Part shown: piece after piece, positions 13,146 through 29,875 of the stretch | How the letters are laid out: each line of letters opens with the position of its first letter | How positions within the stretch are numbered: position 1 is the stretch's first letter | From: a virus | Length of the DNA: 31,340 nucleotides | Direction: 5' to 3' (one strand) | Virus record (IMG/VR): IMGVR_UViG_3300021376_000229 | Coordinates: 1 to 31,340 of that record | Translations under genes and position numbers: made by a program | Notes under the pieces: generated by a model | Told to the model about the DNA's origin: nothing | Databases searched by the model: none | The model's input: only the letters and a program-made list of their open reading frames with translations

Positions 13146-14741
13146 ATGCCCGCTATAATATCGGATCAATTTAGAGTTTTAAATGCAGAAAGCTTTGTAA
13201 AAAGTGTTTCTGGTGTAGGCGATACTTCAAATAAATATTATACTTTTATAGGATTACCAAATAGTTCTAGTCCAGCAGCGGGCGGATCTTCTACTTGGAT
13301 TTCCAATACGCCCTCTCCTCTAGATGGATTTAAAGAAGAATATGTAGTTAAAGAAAGTATCATATCATTAAAACAAATCACAAATCAAGATGTACGAAGA
13401 CTTGTAAGAAAAGTTATTTGGACTGCTGGAAATACTTTTGAAATGTATAGGCATGATTATAATGTTTTTAATGTCACTCCAGTTACATCTCAAACTGGTT
13501 TATATGAAGCAAATTTTTATGTAATAAATGAAGATTTGAGAGTTTATATTTGTCTACAAAATGGAACTGATCCAGAAAATCCAAAAGGAAGACCATCTTT
13601 TGACCAACCTACATTTATTGATTTAGAACCAAGAGCTGCAGGAGCTAGTGGTGATGGCTACATTTGGAAATACTTATATACTATCAAACCTTCTGAAATT
13701 GTTAAATTTGATTCCATAGAATATATACCAGTTCCGGAAAATTGGGGAAGTTCGGGTGAGTCAATTCCTACAAAAAATAATGCAGTTGATGGTAAGATAG
13801 AAGTTATCATAATTAATAGCAGAGGTTCTAATTATCAACCAATTTCAACATCTTTTTCCAATGTACCTATATTGGGTGATGGAACTGGAGGTAAAGCAAC
13901 AATTACAATTGATTCTTTTGGTAAAGTATCTGAAGTATTTGTTACAGATGGTGGAAAAAATTACACTTATGGAACAATACAATTTTATCCAGGAGCTCCT
14001 GGATCTGAAATAACTGGACCCCTAAAACAATTGAGTAATACTGGAATTGGTACTACTTCCATAGCATCTTTTAATGTGATTATTCCACCAAAGGGCGGTC
14101 ATGGGTATGACATTTATCGAGAACTGGGTGCTTATAAAGTTTTACTATATTCTAGATATGAAACTTTGGAAAGCAACCCCGATATTATTTTAGGAAATGA
14201 TTTTGCTAGAGTTGGAATATTAAAAAATCCTACTATTTTAGGAAGTAATGTTCAAATTTTGGATACATCAGTGGTTAGTGGATTAAATGCTTTAAAATTA
14301 AGCGGAGTTACCACTAATACAACATATGCAGTCGATTCTGTTATAAAACAAACTGTTGGATTTGGATCAACAGCGATAGGATTCGTAGCTTCTTGGGATT
14401 CTATAACAGGAGTATTAAAATACTATCAACCAACAGGGCTTGCTTCAAGTGAAACTGGATTTAAAATTATTCCATTTACTTCAAATCCAGATGTTGGATA
14501 TGGAACAACAATTAATTGTTCTACGATTATTGGACCAACACTGTCAATTAACACAGGTTTTAGTGGTGTAACAACCACAATAAATAATAGAATATATCAG
14601 TTGGGACAACAGTTTGTTGCTGGTATTTCTTCAGCTGAATATAATAAAAAATCTGGAGATATTATTTACTTGGATAATAGACAACCTATCCCAAGATCTG
14701 CCAATCAAAAAGAAGATATTAAAATTGTATTGGAGTTCTAA
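13146..14741 (+). CDS. 8: Baseplate wedge subunit, T4 gp8-like
   Basis: The 531-residue product resembles the gp8 wedge protein of T4-like marine phages. In T4, gp8 forms dimers that join the wedge built by gp10, gp7, gp6 and gp53. The family signature is near the N-terminus: an opening with ISDQFRVLNAESF, then YYTFIG, a KEEYVVKESIISLKQIT stretch, WTAGNTFEMYRHDYN, and the conserved GDGYIWKYLYTIKPSE around residues 169-184. It is longer than T4 gp8 (334 residues); extra length lies in the C-terminal half, which contains GGxGY-like segments (NSRGSNYQP near residue 225 and TDGGKNYTYG near residue 268) also found in the two flanking giant proteins. The ATG has no clear Shine-Dalgarno sequence. 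The gene follows the giant protein by 33 bases and ends 5 bases before the next gene, which fits a baseplate operon. Identification by motifs is strong; symbol follows T4 nomenclature. Confidence 0.88.
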   Translation: MPAIISDQFRVLNAESFVKSVSGVGDTSNKYYTFIGLPNSSSPAAGGSSTWISNTPSPLDGFKEEYVVKESIISLKQITNQDVRRLVRKVIWTAGNTFEMYRHDYNVFNVTPVTSQTGLYEANFYVINEDLRVYICLQNGTDPENPKGRPSFDQPTFIDLEPRAAGASGDGYIWKYLYTIKPSEIVKFDSIEYIPVPENWGSSGESIPTKNNAVDGKIEVIIINSRGSNYQPISTSFSNVPILGDGTGGKATITIDSFGKVSEVFVTDGGKNYTYGTIQFYPGAPGSEITGPLKQLSNTGIGTTSIASFNVIIPPKGGHGYDIYRELGAYKVLLYSRYETLESNPDIILGNDFARVGILKNPTILGSNVQILDTSVVSGLNALKLSGVTTNTTYAVDSVIKQTVGFGSTAIGFVASWDSITGVLKYYQPTGLASSETGFKIIPFTSNPDVGYGTTINCSTIIGPTLSINTGFSGVTTTINNRIYQLGQQFVAGISSAEYNKKSGDIIYLDNRQPIPRSANQKEDIKIVLEF

Positions 14742-23585: not shown

Positions 23586-24593
23586 ATGGCACTATTAGTT
23601 CCAAATATTGGAGAACTTGAGTCACTCAGATACTTGGTTGCACAGAACAACCACACTGCAAGTCTTGCTGATCAGTCTCCTAGAAATCTAGTTTTAAAAC
23701 TTTTTACAAGTAACACCACTCCAGCCGAGACGGATGTTCCTTCTGTAACTAAATATTTTGAACCATATGGAGTTGGAAATACCAATGCCTATGGATTTGC
23801 TCCTACTACAGGGTATCCATATTGTGTAAACAATAGAGCAGATCAAAATTATTCATCTCAGACTGGTATTCTTCTCAATGGTTCTCGTTGGAGAATCAAT
23901 CAGGTAGGTTCTGGTACAACTGCTACTTATCCTGAACAAACATTTACATTTACTGGAGATGCCGGTGATGTTTATGGTTATTATGTAACTCGTGCAAACA
24001 ATATGCCTGTCGCGGTTCAGGGTGTTATACATGGAGCCACTGTTGGAATCGGAACTACAGTGACAAAAGGAAATAACACCGATCCAGTCATTGGAGTTGT
24101 AGGTAACTTCTATATTACAGTTGATCCAGATCAAAGTGTTGATGATTTAACTTTGGGAATGGTTGTGGGTGGTAATCTTGGAATTCAAACTGGCACTAAA
24201 GTTATTGGTATTGATCGAGCTTATAAAGTTGTTTATCTAGATAAAGCACTCATTGATAATATTCAGGTTGCTACCGACTCAAGTGTTGAATTTAGTTATT
24301 CTAAAATGGTAAGAAGTGATCACCAACTTGTAGCGGGAGATGTTCTTTATATTGCAGCTGGTGCAGGTAATACAACATTAGAGTCTAATACCTACACTGT
24401 TTTCTCAGTCCCCAATGCCAATGAGTTTTTTACAACTCCTGCACTCAATCCAACTTTGAATACTGTTGCTGGTCTTAATACTGCAACTCTCTTTAGTTCA
24501 ATTATGTACGCTGAGAGATTCACGAATGGTCCTTACAGCATCCAAAACAACGGTGACCAAATCAAGATTACACTCAACATTGCTCTTGACTGA
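23586..24593 (+). CDS. Probably abundant virion structural protein, unknown family
   Basis: The 335-residue protein starts MALLVPNIGELESLRYLV and is rich in small and beta-forming residues. Features I can see: a LESLRYLV helix at residues 9-16; a short strand NLVLKLFTSN; an aromatic, glycine-rich stretch VTKYFEPYGVGNTNAYGF (about residues 54-71); FTFTGDAGDVYGYYVT near residue 122; and beta strands to the end (QIKITLNIALD). I recognise it as a type of virion protein found in T4-like marine phages beside fibre genes, but cannot name its function. It has its own late promoter at 23535, a good ribosome binding site and an intrinsic terminator at 24623, so it is probably made in large amount. The nearly balanced use of C-ending codons (CTC, GTC, AAC, ACC near its 3' end) contrasts with the AT-ending codons of neighbours and points the same way. 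Decoration or distal-tail protein are options. Confidence 0.75.
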   Translation: MALLVPNIGELESLRYLVAQNNHTASLADQSPRNLVLKLFTSNTTPAETDVPSVTKYFEPYGVGNTNAYGFAPTTGYPYCVNNRADQNYSSQTGILLNGSRWRINQVGSGTTATYPEQTFTFTGDAGDVYGYYVTRANNMPVAVQGVIHGATVGIGTTVTKGNNTDPVIGVVGNFYITVDPDQSVDDLTLGMVVGGNLGIQTGTKVIGIDRAYKVVYLDKALIDNIQVATDSSVEFSYSKMVRSDHQLVAGDVLYIAAGAGNTTLESNTYTVFSVPNANEFFTTPALNPTLNTVAGLNTATLFSSIMYAERFTNGPYSIQNNGDQIKITLNIALD

Positions 24594-24622: not shown

Positions 24623-24653
24623 GGGGATTGTAACTGCAGTCCCCCTTTTTTTT
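24623..24653 (+). terminator. Rho-independent terminator
   Basis: GGGGATTG (24623-24630), loop TAACTG, and CAGTCCCC (24637-24644) form an 8-bp stem with one G-U pair, followed by a C and eight T residues (24646-24653). The structure is 29 bases downstream of the stop codon of the abundant virion gene. It is the only clear intrinsic terminator in the window. A TTG-started frame that opens at 24621 runs through it, which argues that this TTG is not used. Confidence 0.88.
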
Positions 24654-24677
24654 ATTAAATCTATTGTTTTATTAAAA

Positions 24678-25055
24678 ATGAACATTTATGTTTATAATTC
24701 ATCCACTGTAAATGAGTATTCAATAGAGGATATGGGATCTATTTCCTCCTCTGTTCAATGTTCATTTGATTATGGTGAATTGCAAACGGAAGTTTTTGAC
24801 TGTCAAGATTTTTATGTCGTAACATGTTCCGAGACTTTAATTCCTTTTGGATCCATTAAAATTAAAAAAGAAACTAAAAGTTATCATAAGAAAATTTCTA
24901 AAGAATTTGTCAATCTTATTAAAATTAACGATAAATCTTTTCTTCTTTCTAGATTTATATTGTTTTGGATTGGATTTGGCACAATATTTGAATTTAATAA
25001 TGGCTTAGAAAGACAAGTAATACCTGATGTTTCTGGAGGAGGTATAACAAAATGA
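24678..25055 (+). CDS. Single repeat-unit relative of the downstream fibre protein
   Basis: I place the start at the ATG at 24678 (125 residues). The longer frame from the TTG at 24621 would begin inside the terminator stem and is rejected. The sequence reads as one degenerate copy of the unit that builds the next protein: YNSSTVNEYS, then DMGSI and FDYGEL, then IPFGSIKI, then GFGTIFEFNNGLERQ, matching DYGxI, PFGSIxL and GTLFSFGEKIERR in the same order. Two cysteines (SIKI-flanking FDCQDFYVVTCSE) are unusual for this family. It ends in a TGA that overlaps the ATG of the next gene by four bases (ATGA), so translation is probably coupled. No Shine-Dalgarno sequence precedes it. Function unknown; a capping, chaperone or attachment partner of the large repeat protein is a reasonable guess. 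Confidence 0.66.
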   Translation: MNIYVYNSSTVNEYSIEDMGSISSSVQCSFDYGELQTEVFDCQDFYVVTCSETLIPFGSIKIKKETKSYHKKISKEFVNLIKINDKSFLLSRFILFWIGFGTIFEFNNGLERQVIPDVSGGGITK

Positions 25056-28000
25056 CGTTATATCAATATTCAGGATCTCAAGGATCTCAAGGATTTCAAT
25101 CACTTCCAGTAACTACTTTTACATTTACTCAAAATTTTAGCTTAAACAGTATTAGTTTTGATAATAATTCAATAACTTTTGATAATACAAATCAAAATTT
25201 AATTTCAAGTGCCCCTACCCGCGCATTTAACTATAATTTAACATCAATATCTGATAATAATTTACTTGATTATGGGTTAATCACAAATAGTGTTGGATTT
25301 TTAGATGACTATGGGCAAATTAGTCAACTATCTAGTACAACTTTAGACTATGGATTAACAACTCAATCTGTCATTTCCACAGTGTATCCTTTTGGTGGAA
25401 TGCAGTTAAGTGGATCTGCTTCTTTAATAGTTCCTGCAGATATTAGAACTTACAATGCAGTAGGATCATATAGTTTAACATATAGTCCAGATGATACTAC
25501 AGGAACTCTCTTCAGTTTTGGTGAAAAGATTGAACGAAGAACTTATGATTATAGTCAATCTTCTATTGAAACCCCTGAAGATGATTACGGTTCAATATCT
25601 AATGTTATTTTATTTACTGATGAATATGGATCACTTTTAGATTCATCAAATCTAACAGAAGACTTTGGACTTGTTAGTACAATAGACTTGTTCTCTGCAG
25701 CTACTCCATTTGGAAAATTAACTATTGGTGGATCTGCAGATACCGAGTGGATTAATAAAAATTTCTATGGACCACTTTTTGGTACAATTGGACAGGTAAA
25801 GGTAACTTATAGTCCAGATGATACTACAGGAACTCTCTTCAGTTTTGGTGAAAAGATTGAACGAAGAACATATAATTATGATATACTTTCTGTTCAAAAT
25901 ATAGGTCAAGATTACGGTTCAATATCTAATGTTATTTTATTTACTGATGAATATGGATCAGTCTCAAATTCATCAACCTTAACAGAAGATTTTGGATTCG
26001 TTAGTACGATAGATTTGTCCTCTGCAGCTACTCCATTTGGAAAATTAACTATTGGTGGATCTGCAGATACTGAATGGATTAATAAAAATTTCTATGGATC
26101 AACTTTTGGTACAATTGGACAGGTAAAGGTAACTTATAGTCCAGATGATACTACAGGAACTCTCTTCAGTTTTGGTGAAAAGATTGAGAGAAGATCTTAT
26201 GATTATAATCAATCTTCTATTGAAAATACTGAAAGTGATTATGGATCAATAAGTCAAATAACATCACAAACTGAGGATTATCAATCCATTACAACAATTC
26301 ATGGATTGGTAGAAGAATTTGGATTTATAACAGAACCCACTGGTGGTTTGGTACTTCCTTTTGGTACTATAACTCTAAGTGGATCAGCAATAACTGCTGT
26401 TAATTATAGACTATTCTTCTATGGATCCTCTGTAGAAAAATTTGTTTATAGTCCAGATGATACTACAGGAACTCTCTTCAGTTTTGGTGAAAAGATTGAA
26501 AGAATAACATATTCATACAATAAACAATCTATAATTAATAATATAGATGATTATGGATTAGTTTCTGAGTTAACTATAGGTGGTTTTGACTATGGATTAA
26601 TAACAAGTATTAGTGGTTCTCAACCTTCAGAAAATTATGGATTAATTTCAGAATCTGTAGTATCCTCTATATCTCTTCCATTTGGATCTTTAAGTTTCTC
26701 TGGAACTTCTCTAGAAAGTGAAATAGATTCTTATGTTGGTGATACAGCAACAATCTTTATAAGTGGCAATGTAAGCAATGTACAAGAAGCAGATTCTTAT
26801 AAGGGCTCCGGAACTATAAGTCTCTCTGGAACATACAACAACTTCAAATATATCAGTGCTTGGGTTGGCTCTGGAATTCTCTTTGGATTTGGTGAAAAGG
26901 TTGAACGAAGAACTTATGTATATGATCAAAATCTACCCGCAACAGTTATAGAAGATTTTGGTTTAATAATTAATTCTCCAACAACAACTATTGATTGTGG
27001 TTCTGTTAATTCTCCAGTTAATGATGGCATAGAAAATTATGGTAGTCTGGGAGGTGCAATTGGTGTAACTCCATTTGGATCTCTAAGTCTATCTGGAACT
27101 GCTTTAGAAAGTGAAACTGATGCTTACATTGGTCTAGGAACAATCTTTGGAAGTGGTAACGTAAGTAATGTACAAGAAACAGATTCTTATAAGGGCTCTG
27201 GAACTATAAGTCTTTCTGGAACTGCTCTAGATTCTTCTATTATTGGTTATGTTGGTTCCGGAATACTCTTTGGATTTGGTGAAAAAATTGAACGAAGATC
27301 TTATGCATATAATAAGACTTCAGTAGAAAATGACGAAGATTATGGATTAGTTTCAGAATTAACTATAGGTGGAACTGATTATGGGTCTATAGCTGGCGTT
27401 GGCGGCGGACAAATTGATGATGATTATGGTTTAATAACTCAATCAAACATTACTGCAATTCCATTTGGATCTATAACTCTTTCTGGTATTTCTTCTAATA
27501 GAGAAATTGCAGTATATGGTTATTATGGAAATGATAATAATCCAGGAACTTCAGGAACAATCTTTATAAGTGGTAATGTAAGTAATGTACAAGAGATAGA
27601 TTCTTATAAGGGCTCTGGAACTATAACTCTTTCTGGAATTGCTCTAGAAAGTGAAAGTGATGTTTATATTGGCCTAGGAACAATCTTTGTATCTGATTTT
27701 GGATTAGAGAGTGAAATAGATGTTTATACGGCTTCTGGATCTATAAGTCTCTCTGGAACAGCTGTAGAAAGTTTCTCTGCACAAACTCCAGAAGATACTC
27801 AACTGTTTGTAATTTCAGGATCTGCATCTAACATTAAAGAAACAGATTCTTACAGTGGATCTGGATCTCTAAGTCTATCTGGAATTGCTCTAGAAAGTGA
27901 AAGTGATGTTTATATTGGCCTAGGAACAATCTTTGTATCTGATTTTGGATTAGAGAGTGAAATAGATGTTTATACGGCTTCTGGATCTATAAGTCTCTCT

Positions 28001-29875
28001 GGAACAGCTGTAGAAAGTTTCTCTGCACAAACTCCAGAAGATACTCAACTGTTTGTAATTTCAGGATCTGCATCTAACATTAAAGAAACAGATTCTTACA
28101 GTGGATCTGGAACTATAACTCTTTCTGGAATTGCTCTAGAAAGTGAAAGTGATGTTTATATAGGATTAGGTACTGTAGTACTTTCTGACTTCGGTAGAGA
28201 AAGTGAAATAGATGTTTATACGGCTTCTGGATCTATAAGTCTCTCTGGAACAGCTGTAGAAAGTTTCTCTGCACAAACTCCAGAAGATACTCAACTGTTT
28301 GTAATTTCTGATGTTGGTGTAAGATATTACTCTCCAATATACCCAAGAAATGCTCTCATTGGTGATCCAGGATCTGGAATTGGAACTATCCGACTTAATG
28401 ACGATTCTGTTTTAACTGTAACTAGAGCTACTCTTCCATATAAGGCAAAAGGTGGTATAACACTTTCTAATGGACTTAAAGAATCCTTTAATAAAGGAAA
28501 TTATAATAGTTCTGGTATTGTTACACTATCTGGTATTGCATCAACTAGAGAAATTCAAGTTTACGGATATTATGGTGACCAGAAGAATCCTGGAACTAGT
28601 GGAAAAATAACTTTAAATGAACAAACTACTCCAATTATTGAGAAATATACATCATCTTATGTTGGTTTAGGTACAATCACTTTAAGTGATTCTTTTGAAA
28701 GAAGACGTTTACGTGCATGGAACGGATCTGGTACTATTACATTATCCGGAATAGGTTTAGACTCTATTACTATTCCAGTATCAAATACCATACTATTCAA
28801 GTTTAGTGGTTCTAAATTTGAATCATTTATTCCAACTACAGAAATTGGTTCTGGAATTATTACTATTACAGGATCTTCCGATACCCCAATAAGAACTTTT
28901 GTTCATAACGGTTCGGGTTCCATAGTCCTCAATGGTTCTGCTATAATTAGACCAGTTCTGAGACAAATTGGTACAGGAACGATTCGTCTTGTACCTAGAT
29001 TTAGAGTTGATGACGATTATACCTCTTGTGATAATGATACGGACTTTTCAGTTCAATTTGGTAATACACCACTTCTTAATGCTACGTCAATTACTTTTGA
29101 TAATTCAAACATTACTTTTGATAGTCAGATAATCAAATCTACTTCTACACTTTCTGTAACTTGTGATAGGGAGGATGATGCAACTGTCAAATTTGTTGCA
29201 AATCCACCAGAAGATACAATATTATTCACAATTAGTGGATCTTCAATAACATCGGTAGTAAGTCTTGATAGTTATGTAGGAATTGGAAATATCTTTATTT
29301 CTGGTGGATATACAAATCTGAGATCAACAAAAGTTAAAGTTGGAACTGGAATTGTAACTATCTCGCAGCTATCTAAGGATGTTGAGATTGATTCTTATGT
29401 TGGACTTGGGACAATATTAAGTCTCTCAGGAGCTTCCAAATCTAAAATTGCAAATCCACCAGAAAATACCATTCTTGTACAAATTGGTGGAACTGCTTCC
29501 ACTAGAGTTGAATTTGAATATTCTTATGTTGGAGTTGGAACTCAATATTTCAGTGGTATTGGCTCTCAAAGAATTGTTTATGCAGATCGTGGATCTGGAC
29601 TGATTTCTCTATCTGGTAATCTTGTTTATCCTGATATTAAATTTGTTCCATCCCCAGATGGTTCTGGAATCATATCTATTGTTGGAACGTCTAAAGAAAA
29701 ATCAACCGTTGTTCATAATATTCAAGGGGGATCTCTTTTCACTCTTTATGGTGGATTTGAATCCTTTAGTAAAACAAATTATAATGGAATTGGCACTATC
29801 TTTATTGTTGGAGCAGCTTCTTCTATTATCAATAATCCATTCCAACCATCAAGAGTTTATGTCACAATAATCTAA
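25052..29875 (+). CDS. 1607-aa tandem-repeat fibre or adhesin-like virion protein
   Basis: The start overlaps the previous stop (ATGA) and has a strong GGAGGAGG (25035-25042) nine bases before it. The N-terminus includes short collagen-like triplets (GSQGSQGFQ, residues 7-15). From about residue 70 to 500 the protein is built from units of about 104-109 residues with DYGxI, PFGxxxxxG and YSPDDTTGTLFSFGEKIER. From about residue 550 to 1100 it uses shorter repeats of the pattern GSGTIxLSGxALESExDxY, including an 82-residue unit in three copies. The rest has more divergent GxGTIxLSG repeats. The composition (Ser, Gly, Thr, Ile rich, few charges, regular Y/S/G spacing) suits a beta-solenoid or beta-helical fibre. 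No catalytic, signal or membrane segment is seen. Its place between a virion gene and a tail fibre gene supports a virion surface protein. Which receptor, if any, it binds is unknown. Confidence 0.8.
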   Translation: MTLYQYSGSQGSQGFQSLPVTTFTFTQNFSLNSISFDNNSITFDNTNQNLISSAPTRAFNYNLTSISDNNLLDYGLITNSVGFLDDYGQISQLSSTTLDYGLTTQSVISTVYPFGGMQLSGSASLIVPADIRTYNAVGSYSLTYSPDDTTGTLFSFGEKIERRTYDYSQSSIETPEDDYGSISNVILFTDEYGSLLDSSNLTEDFGLVSTIDLFSAATPFGKLTIGGSADTEWINKNFYGPLFGTIGQVKVTYSPDDTTGTLFSFGEKIERRTYNYDILSVQNIGQDYGSISNVILFTDEYGSVSNSSTLTEDFGFVSTIDLSSAATPFGKLTIGGSADTEWINKNFYGSTFGTIGQVKVTYSPDDTTGTLFSFGEKIERRSYDYNQSSIENTESDYGSISQITSQTEDYQSITTIHGLVEEFGFITEPTGGLVLPFGTITLSGSAITAVNYRLFFYGSSVEKFVYSPDDTTGTLFSFGEKIERITYSYNKQSIINNIDDYGLVSELTIGGFDYGLITSISGSQPSENYGLISESVVSSISLPFGSLSFSGTSLESEIDSYVGDTATIFISGNVSNVQEADSYKGSGTISLSGTYNNFKYISAWVGSGILFGFGEKVERRTYVYDQNLPATVIEDFGLIINSPTTTIDCGSVNSPVNDGIENYGSLGGAIGVTPFGSLSLSGTALESETDAYIGLGTIFGSGNVSNVQETDSYKGSGTISLSGTALDSSIIGYVGSGILFGFGEKIERRSYAYNKTSVENDEDYGLVSELTIGGTDYGSIAGVGGGQIDDDYGLITQSNITAIPFGSITLSGISSNREIAVYGYYGNDNNPGTSGTIFISGNVSNVQEIDSYKGSGTITLSGIALESESDVYIGLGTIFVSDFGLESEIDVYTASGSISLSGTAVESFSAQTPEDTQLFVISGSASNIKETDSYSGSGSLSLSGIALESESDVYIGLGTIFVSDFGLESEIDVYTASGSISLSGTAVESFSAQTPEDTQLFVISGSASNIKETDSYSGSGTITLSGIALESESDVYIGLGTVVLSDFGRESEIDVYTASGSISLSGTAVESFSAQTPEDTQLFVISDVGVRYYSPIYPRNALIGDPGSGIGTIRLNDDSVLTVTRATLPYKAKGGITLSNGLKESFNKGNYNSSGIVTLSGIASTREIQVYGYYGDQKNPGTSGKITLNEQTTPIIEKYTSSYVGLGTITLSDSFERRRLRAWNGSGTITLSGIGLDSITIPVSNTILFKFSGSKFESFIPTTEIGSGIITITGSSDTPIRTFVHNGSGSIVLNGSAIIRPVLRQIGTGTIRLVPRFRVDDDYTSCDNDTDFSVQFGNTPLLNATSITFDNSNITFDSQIIKSTSTLSVTCDREDDATVKFVANPPEDTILFTISGSSITSVVSLDSYVGIGNIFISGGYTNLRSTKVKVGTGIVTISQLSKDVEIDSYVGLGTILSLSGASKSKIANPPENTILVQIGGTASTRVEFEYSYVGVGTQYFSGIGSQRIVYADRGSGLISLSGNLVYPDIKFVPSPDGSGIISIVGTSKEKSTVVHNIQGGSLFTLYGGFESFSKTNYNGIGTIFIVGAASSIINNPFQPSRVYVTII
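25481..26499 (+). repeat. Four-copy repeat with 53-bp identical core, 109-codon period
   Basis: A core that encodes YSPDDTTGTLFSFGEKIE starts at 25481, 25808, 26135 and 26447. I find 53 identical bases in all four. The first three are exactly 327 bases apart and the last 312, so all stay in frame. Between them another identical stretch (GATTACGGTTCAATATC, at 25583 and 25910) and a GKLTIGGSAD segment recur. Two further, more divergent copies (GFGEKVERR and GFGEKIERR) follow near 26880 and 27265. Confidence 0.9.
27632..28308 (+). repeat. Three-copy tandem repeat, 246-bp (82-codon) period
   Basis: The unit begins SGIALESESDVY at 27632, 27878 and 28124, exactly 246 bases apart. By eye, bases 27632-27865 and 27878-28111 (234 bases) are identical. 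The third copy differs in its centre (about 28160-28200) but returns to identity from ATAGATGTTTATACGG to GTTTGTAATTTC. Such near-perfect identity in an otherwise diverged protein means recent tandem duplication or gene conversion. Confidence 0.9.

Follow-up and report, generated by a model that had tools for sequence, protein, structure and literature searches.

In some genes of T4-like phages, the coding sequence is divided into two regions and the two products come together again, as in the case of Aeh1 nrdA (PMC2988022). More generally, genes that encode subunits of heteromeric complexes show an enrichment of 4-nt and 1-nt overlaps (PMC10666635). The Synechococcus phages S-SSM7 and Sf-FS3 encode hypothetical, phrog_11522-like proteins (SSSM7_110 and SfFS3_93, respectively) that share with the genes described here their locus, upstream genes, and N-terminal domain, as well as a similar C-terminal motif. 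Each of these proteins is encoded by one continuous ORF and contains fewer units of this type, whereas in the 31,340-nucleotide stretch of viral DNA that we analyzed (IMG/VR record IMGVR_UViG_3300021376_000229, hereafter the window), two adjacent genes, which we call small and large, correspond to the one continuous gene of relatives.

The small/large module sits between baseplate genes and further tail genes (Table 1). A preliminary description of this DNA had located the ATG start of the small gene correctly at 24678 but ran the gene on to 25130; it ends with a TGA at 25055. The 4-base overlap with the large gene was described accurately and is an ATGA, the large frame being −1 relative to the small frame. 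The order of motifs given for the small protein also stands, with the exception of the first motif, which reads YNSSTVNEYS, with T rather than S. The large protein matches the profile of phrog_11522, a cyanophage repeat protein of unknown function, with an E value of 3.6e-52. The same profile gave no match to the small protein alone and is matched by 17 of the 34 members of our domain alignment. Hairpins similar to the terminator-like one upstream of the small gene occur in both fused and split relatives, and small and large may be transcribed together as a separate unit.

Table 1 Positions of the small and large genes and of associated features in the window
Feature	Position	Strand	Remarks
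T4-like baseplate gene	13146-14741		Upstream; matches phrog_438 (baseplate wedge)
Conserved upstream gene (335 aa, phrog_10467)	23586..24593	+	Survey anchor; the small gene's domain adjoins it in every such locus with enough downstream DNA
Terminator-like hairpin and T-run	24623..24654	+	Between upstream gene and small gene
Small gene (125 aa)	24678..25055	+	One repeat unit, detached N-terminal domain of a fibre-type protein; 100.6 bits to profile of fused N-terminal domains; dN/dS 0.16 versus L006
Shine-Dalgarno of large gene, GGAGGAGG	25035..25042	+	Within Gly-Gly-Gly codons of small gene
Predicted hairpin	25041..25064	+	Stem 25041-25048/25057-25064; loop 25049-25056 holds start codon
Stop/start overlap, small to large	25052..25055	+	ATGA; ATGA, GTGA, or 1-nt overlap in all other split loci with a readable next start
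Large gene (1607-aa repeat protein)	25052..29875	+	Seven units, then short GSG-type repeats and conserved C-terminus ...NNPFQPSRVYVTII
Seven in-phase units of large protein	25226..27628	+	Approximately residues 59-165, 166-272, 274-380, 383-489, 487-619, 621-737, 751-859

We compared the small protein with its neighbor using a profile whose 27 source sequences are N-terminal domains of fused proteins in other phages, with none from the split lineage. This profile matches the small protein across its full length at 100.6 bits and picks out a run of seven in-phase units in the large protein (15.6-33.7 bits), beginning at residues 59, 167, 274, 383, 487, 621, and 751; the best score among 200 locally shuffled large proteins was 9.8 bits. 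The pair therefore comprises eight homologous units, the first of which resides on its own polypeptide. Pairwise Smith-Waterman alignments of the small protein with each unit score 58-76, as compared with shuffled means of 28-33. None of the composition shuffles of the small protein (500 each) reached the observed scores, and shuffling the units instead did so once in 500, for one unit only. These results bear out both the likeness of the small gene to a single unit of the large one and its better alignment to the units than to shuffled sequence.

In tblastn searches of phage genomes, the small protein matches the start of a long ORF in S-SSM7, S-SSM6a, and Sf-FS3. The GLER-x-V-I-P-D motif at the end of the small protein is common to the fused forms. 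Beyond it, the window reads VIPDVSGGG and reaches a stop within a few residues, whereas the fused forms read VIPDLGAAG and go on into more repeats. The cut falls just past the end of the unit. The gap between the 100.6-bit match to fused N-termini and the at most ≈34 bits of the neighbor's units points to an ancestral first unit detached by gene fission, and by sequence comparison the small gene is orthologous to the first unit of the fused forms rather than a copy of any unit in its neighbor. Separately, the GenBank start of SSSM7_110 (S-SSM7, GU071098.1; L007:9001-9070) lies 69 nt too far downstream, so that part of the conserved N-terminal domain is lost; in related contigs, too, the first codon of this domain is one for leucine, apparently TTG used as a start.

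To survey relatives, we searched viral contigs independently for the domain and for the conserved 335-aa upstream gene, and classified the loci by script. The domain is present in every locus with at least 500 nt of downstream sequence: 158 are fused, 42 are split, and 3 are undetermined, with some contigs counted twice. Six further loci had too short a tail. These loci contain ≈85 distinct fused domains and 24 distinct split small proteins (that of the window and 23 others), and the fused set includes S-SSM7 and Sf-FS3, in which the domain forms the N-terminus of one long ORF. Eighteen fused loci gave partial first matches; of 10 that were inspected, 9 proved to contain the entire domain plus an insert, and the match in S-SCSM2R (L009) is poor. 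A large ORF follows the split small gene wherever enough sequence is available, and the split is kept down to ≈40% identity among the small proteins. The co-occurrence of the two parts in relatives is thus confirmed, the unit being constant with the large gene and no loss being seen among loci with enough downstream DNA.

At the junction between the two genes, wherever a split small protein is followed by a readable start, the overlap is 4 nt (18 of 23) or 1 nt (5 of 23), in agreement with the close coupling that had been proposed. The final codons of the small gene, Ser-Gly-Gly-Gly, bear the Shine-Dalgarno sequence of the large gene. SGGG occurs near the end of the small protein in 26 of 27 distinct junctions, and all 26 contain a Shine-Dalgarno-like GG[A/G]GG; in these, 5 or 8 nt separate the final glycine codon from the start. 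We rejected the codon choice within SGGG as evidence for a Shine-Dalgarno sequence; it is uninformative because chance alone yields GG[A/G]GG in ≈82% of Gly triplets.

We also folded the region from −18 to +24 around the start of the large gene in a position-specific manner, using in-frame windows from the same genes as controls. The predicted hairpin mostly loops out the start codon and pairs all or part of the Shine-Dalgarno sequence, which is partly paired in the window and fully paired in many relatives. It is more stable than the control windows (Fisher p 8e-6, 13 groups), a combined value that is optimistic because related groups were treated as independent and this was the second of two tests. 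By locus, the value is marginal for the window (p 0.07) and lower for L086 (p 0.012); among control starts, those of the upstream gene, 0 of 27 fall below p 0.05. An earlier, simple duplex test was weaker (Fisher p 1.4e-4; window p 0.36). Statistically, the hairpin would tend to occlude the start site of the large gene, and together with the overlap it is consistent with translational coupling of small and large.

In a tree of the domain, all split small proteins but one lie on one side of a branch with a support of 100/99. The exception is L199:9092-9442, where the corresponding position is occupied by a highly diverged small gene that has a GGAGG Shine-Dalgarno sequence and an ATGA overlap of its own; it probably represents a second, independent fission. 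We rooted a tree of the upstream gene with its most distant relatives; its outgroups (the L040 group and S-CAM1) all carry one long ORF, and the split loci are nested inside fused ones, which suggests fission and not duplication. The upstream gene of the window clusters with those of two fused loci, L143 and L145 (92-93% identity, support 99/92), and despite these close upstream genes its small protein is far from their counterparts. The simplest reading of these sequences would be that fission came first and that phages then exchanged the module as a whole.

Split and fused forms also differ in the size of the repeat array. Split-type large proteins contain a mean of 6.1 units (n=15), as compared with 1.75 in close fused relatives when their N-terminal unit is counted (n=20; Mann-Whitney p 2e-6, kinship ignored). 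Because the split arose essentially once, this expansion is one correlated event and no proof of cause. Unit number varies between close relatives as well: L004 has nine units versus seven in the window. L002 and L004 are ≈98% identical to the window in DNA over the common stretch and diverge past residue 682 of the large protein. The region that differs from them spans 27098-28200 of the window (large residues 683 onward). The small gene is under purifying selection, with a dN/dS of 0.16 between the window and L006; values in the L014-L016 subgroup are 0.4-0.8, on few changes. In split small proteins, the second half is lysine-rich and has lost the GSG pattern, and most members retain the C-terminal signature ER-x-V-I/V-P-D from the fused proteins.

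On the basis of its genomic neighborhood and repeat character, the large protein is probably a tail fibre. The annotation of S-SSM7 gives "structural protein" for the gene two positions upstream of the long ORF and "phage tail protein" for the gene downstream. The N-terminal unit and a C-terminal ...PRTYVVII are retained in large and fused proteins alike, whereas the length and unit number of the stretch between them vary; a fibre or linker anchored at its two ends would be expected to show this pattern. Pfam and PDB searches returned no relative and no recognizable fibre domain. AlphaFold2 gave no usable model for the small protein (34 sequences; pLDDT 49, pTM 0.12) or for the upstream 335-aa protein (50 sequences; pLDDT 52), and a Foldseek search with the latter model found nothing at E below 0.001. 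The motif around NPFQIPRTYVVII near the C-terminus (window 29831-29872) is conserved in most fused and split proteins despite the variation in unit number, and it may dock to another tail protein.

Taken together, we consider it probable that the small gene encodes what was the first unit of a long fibre-type virion protein in T4-like cyanophages, split off by fission and translated in a coupled manner, and that the two chains reassociate with the small one as a proximal cap. Fission would have cut the N-terminal repeat unit from the fibre-type protein just past its end, so that the unit would be made as its own polypeptide. Ribosomes finishing small would then re-initiate, or open the hairpin, at the large start 4 or 1 nt away, and large would be made in step with small. 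The two chains would most likely reassociate non-covalently, with the small chain most likely acting as a proximal cap or an attachment unit in the fibre formed with large. More tentatively, the detached first unit may act as a separately dosed cap or nucleus that allowed the downstream array to expand and vary, giving a modular, length-variable fibre with a starter subunit.

A role for the small protein as a cap or seed, as proposed in the preliminary description, is plausible. A free chaperone is less likely, because most relatives have the domain covalently built into the fibre protein. The same observation counts against the wider idea that the small protein is a free assembly factor, a chaperone or nucleation seed for the expanded array that is non-stoichiometric in the fibre. 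The larger arrays of split loci (about six units versus about two) and the lysine-rich second half without the GSG pattern would fit such a factor, but the signature retained in most members and the constant adjacency and coupling to large do not, and we regard it as unlikely. The suggested birth of the small gene by partial duplication of a large-gene unit did not hold up. A common origin of all the units is compatible with it, but the small protein is orthologous to, and far closer to, the fused N-terminal domain at the same locus, which in fused relatives is preceded by no additional copy; we give this origin almost no credence.

Could the separate form instead be ancestral, with other phages having fused two genes? 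The domain tree supplies no root of its own, which would leave room for this order and means that the direction of change rests on the upstream-gene outgroups; with these carrying one long ORF and the split loci lying within fused ones, we judge it very unlikely. The −1 relationship of the two frames might also stem from a frameshift error in sequencing or assembly, or from programmed −1 frameshifting through which a fused protein is still made. However, the split recurs in 24 distinct proteins, and both the start codon and the Shine-Dalgarno sequence are conserved. Reading the junctions by eye revealed no common slippery site, leading us to reject programmed frameshifting on the junction sequences; frameshifting of either kind is highly improbable.

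Fission as favored here would be clean, scarless, and long conserved: a structural protein of a phage would have been divided where one repeat unit gives way to the next, with the final codons of its first part also supplying the ribosome-binding site for the second part. The locus allows a single fibre-type protein to be compared in its naturally fused and naturally split forms, raises a possible link between splitting and repeat-array expansion, and explains small orphan ORFs at this position in cyanophage metagenomes. Within the literature we covered, which included few subscription papers, we found no report of a scarless fibre-type split with a second ribosome-binding site inside the first gene. 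Coupled overlapping pairs described elsewhere (PMC6728339, PMC10666635) share with this junction an ATGA or TGATG/TAATG overlap, an internal Shine-Dalgarno sequence, and a hairpin that is predicted to occlude the start site here, marginally so in the window itself, the coupling of small and large being deduced here from sequence. The split genes of T4-like phages, including Aeh1 nrdA, T4 topoisomerase gene 60, and Aeromonas phage gene 43A/43B (PMC2988022), likewise present one ancestral protein as two polypeptides. Those genes encode enzymes, and homing endonucleases or inserted sequence are associated with the way they are divided, whereas no homing endonuclease or insert lies between small and large, where stop and start overlap directly and the protein divided is a structural repeat protein.
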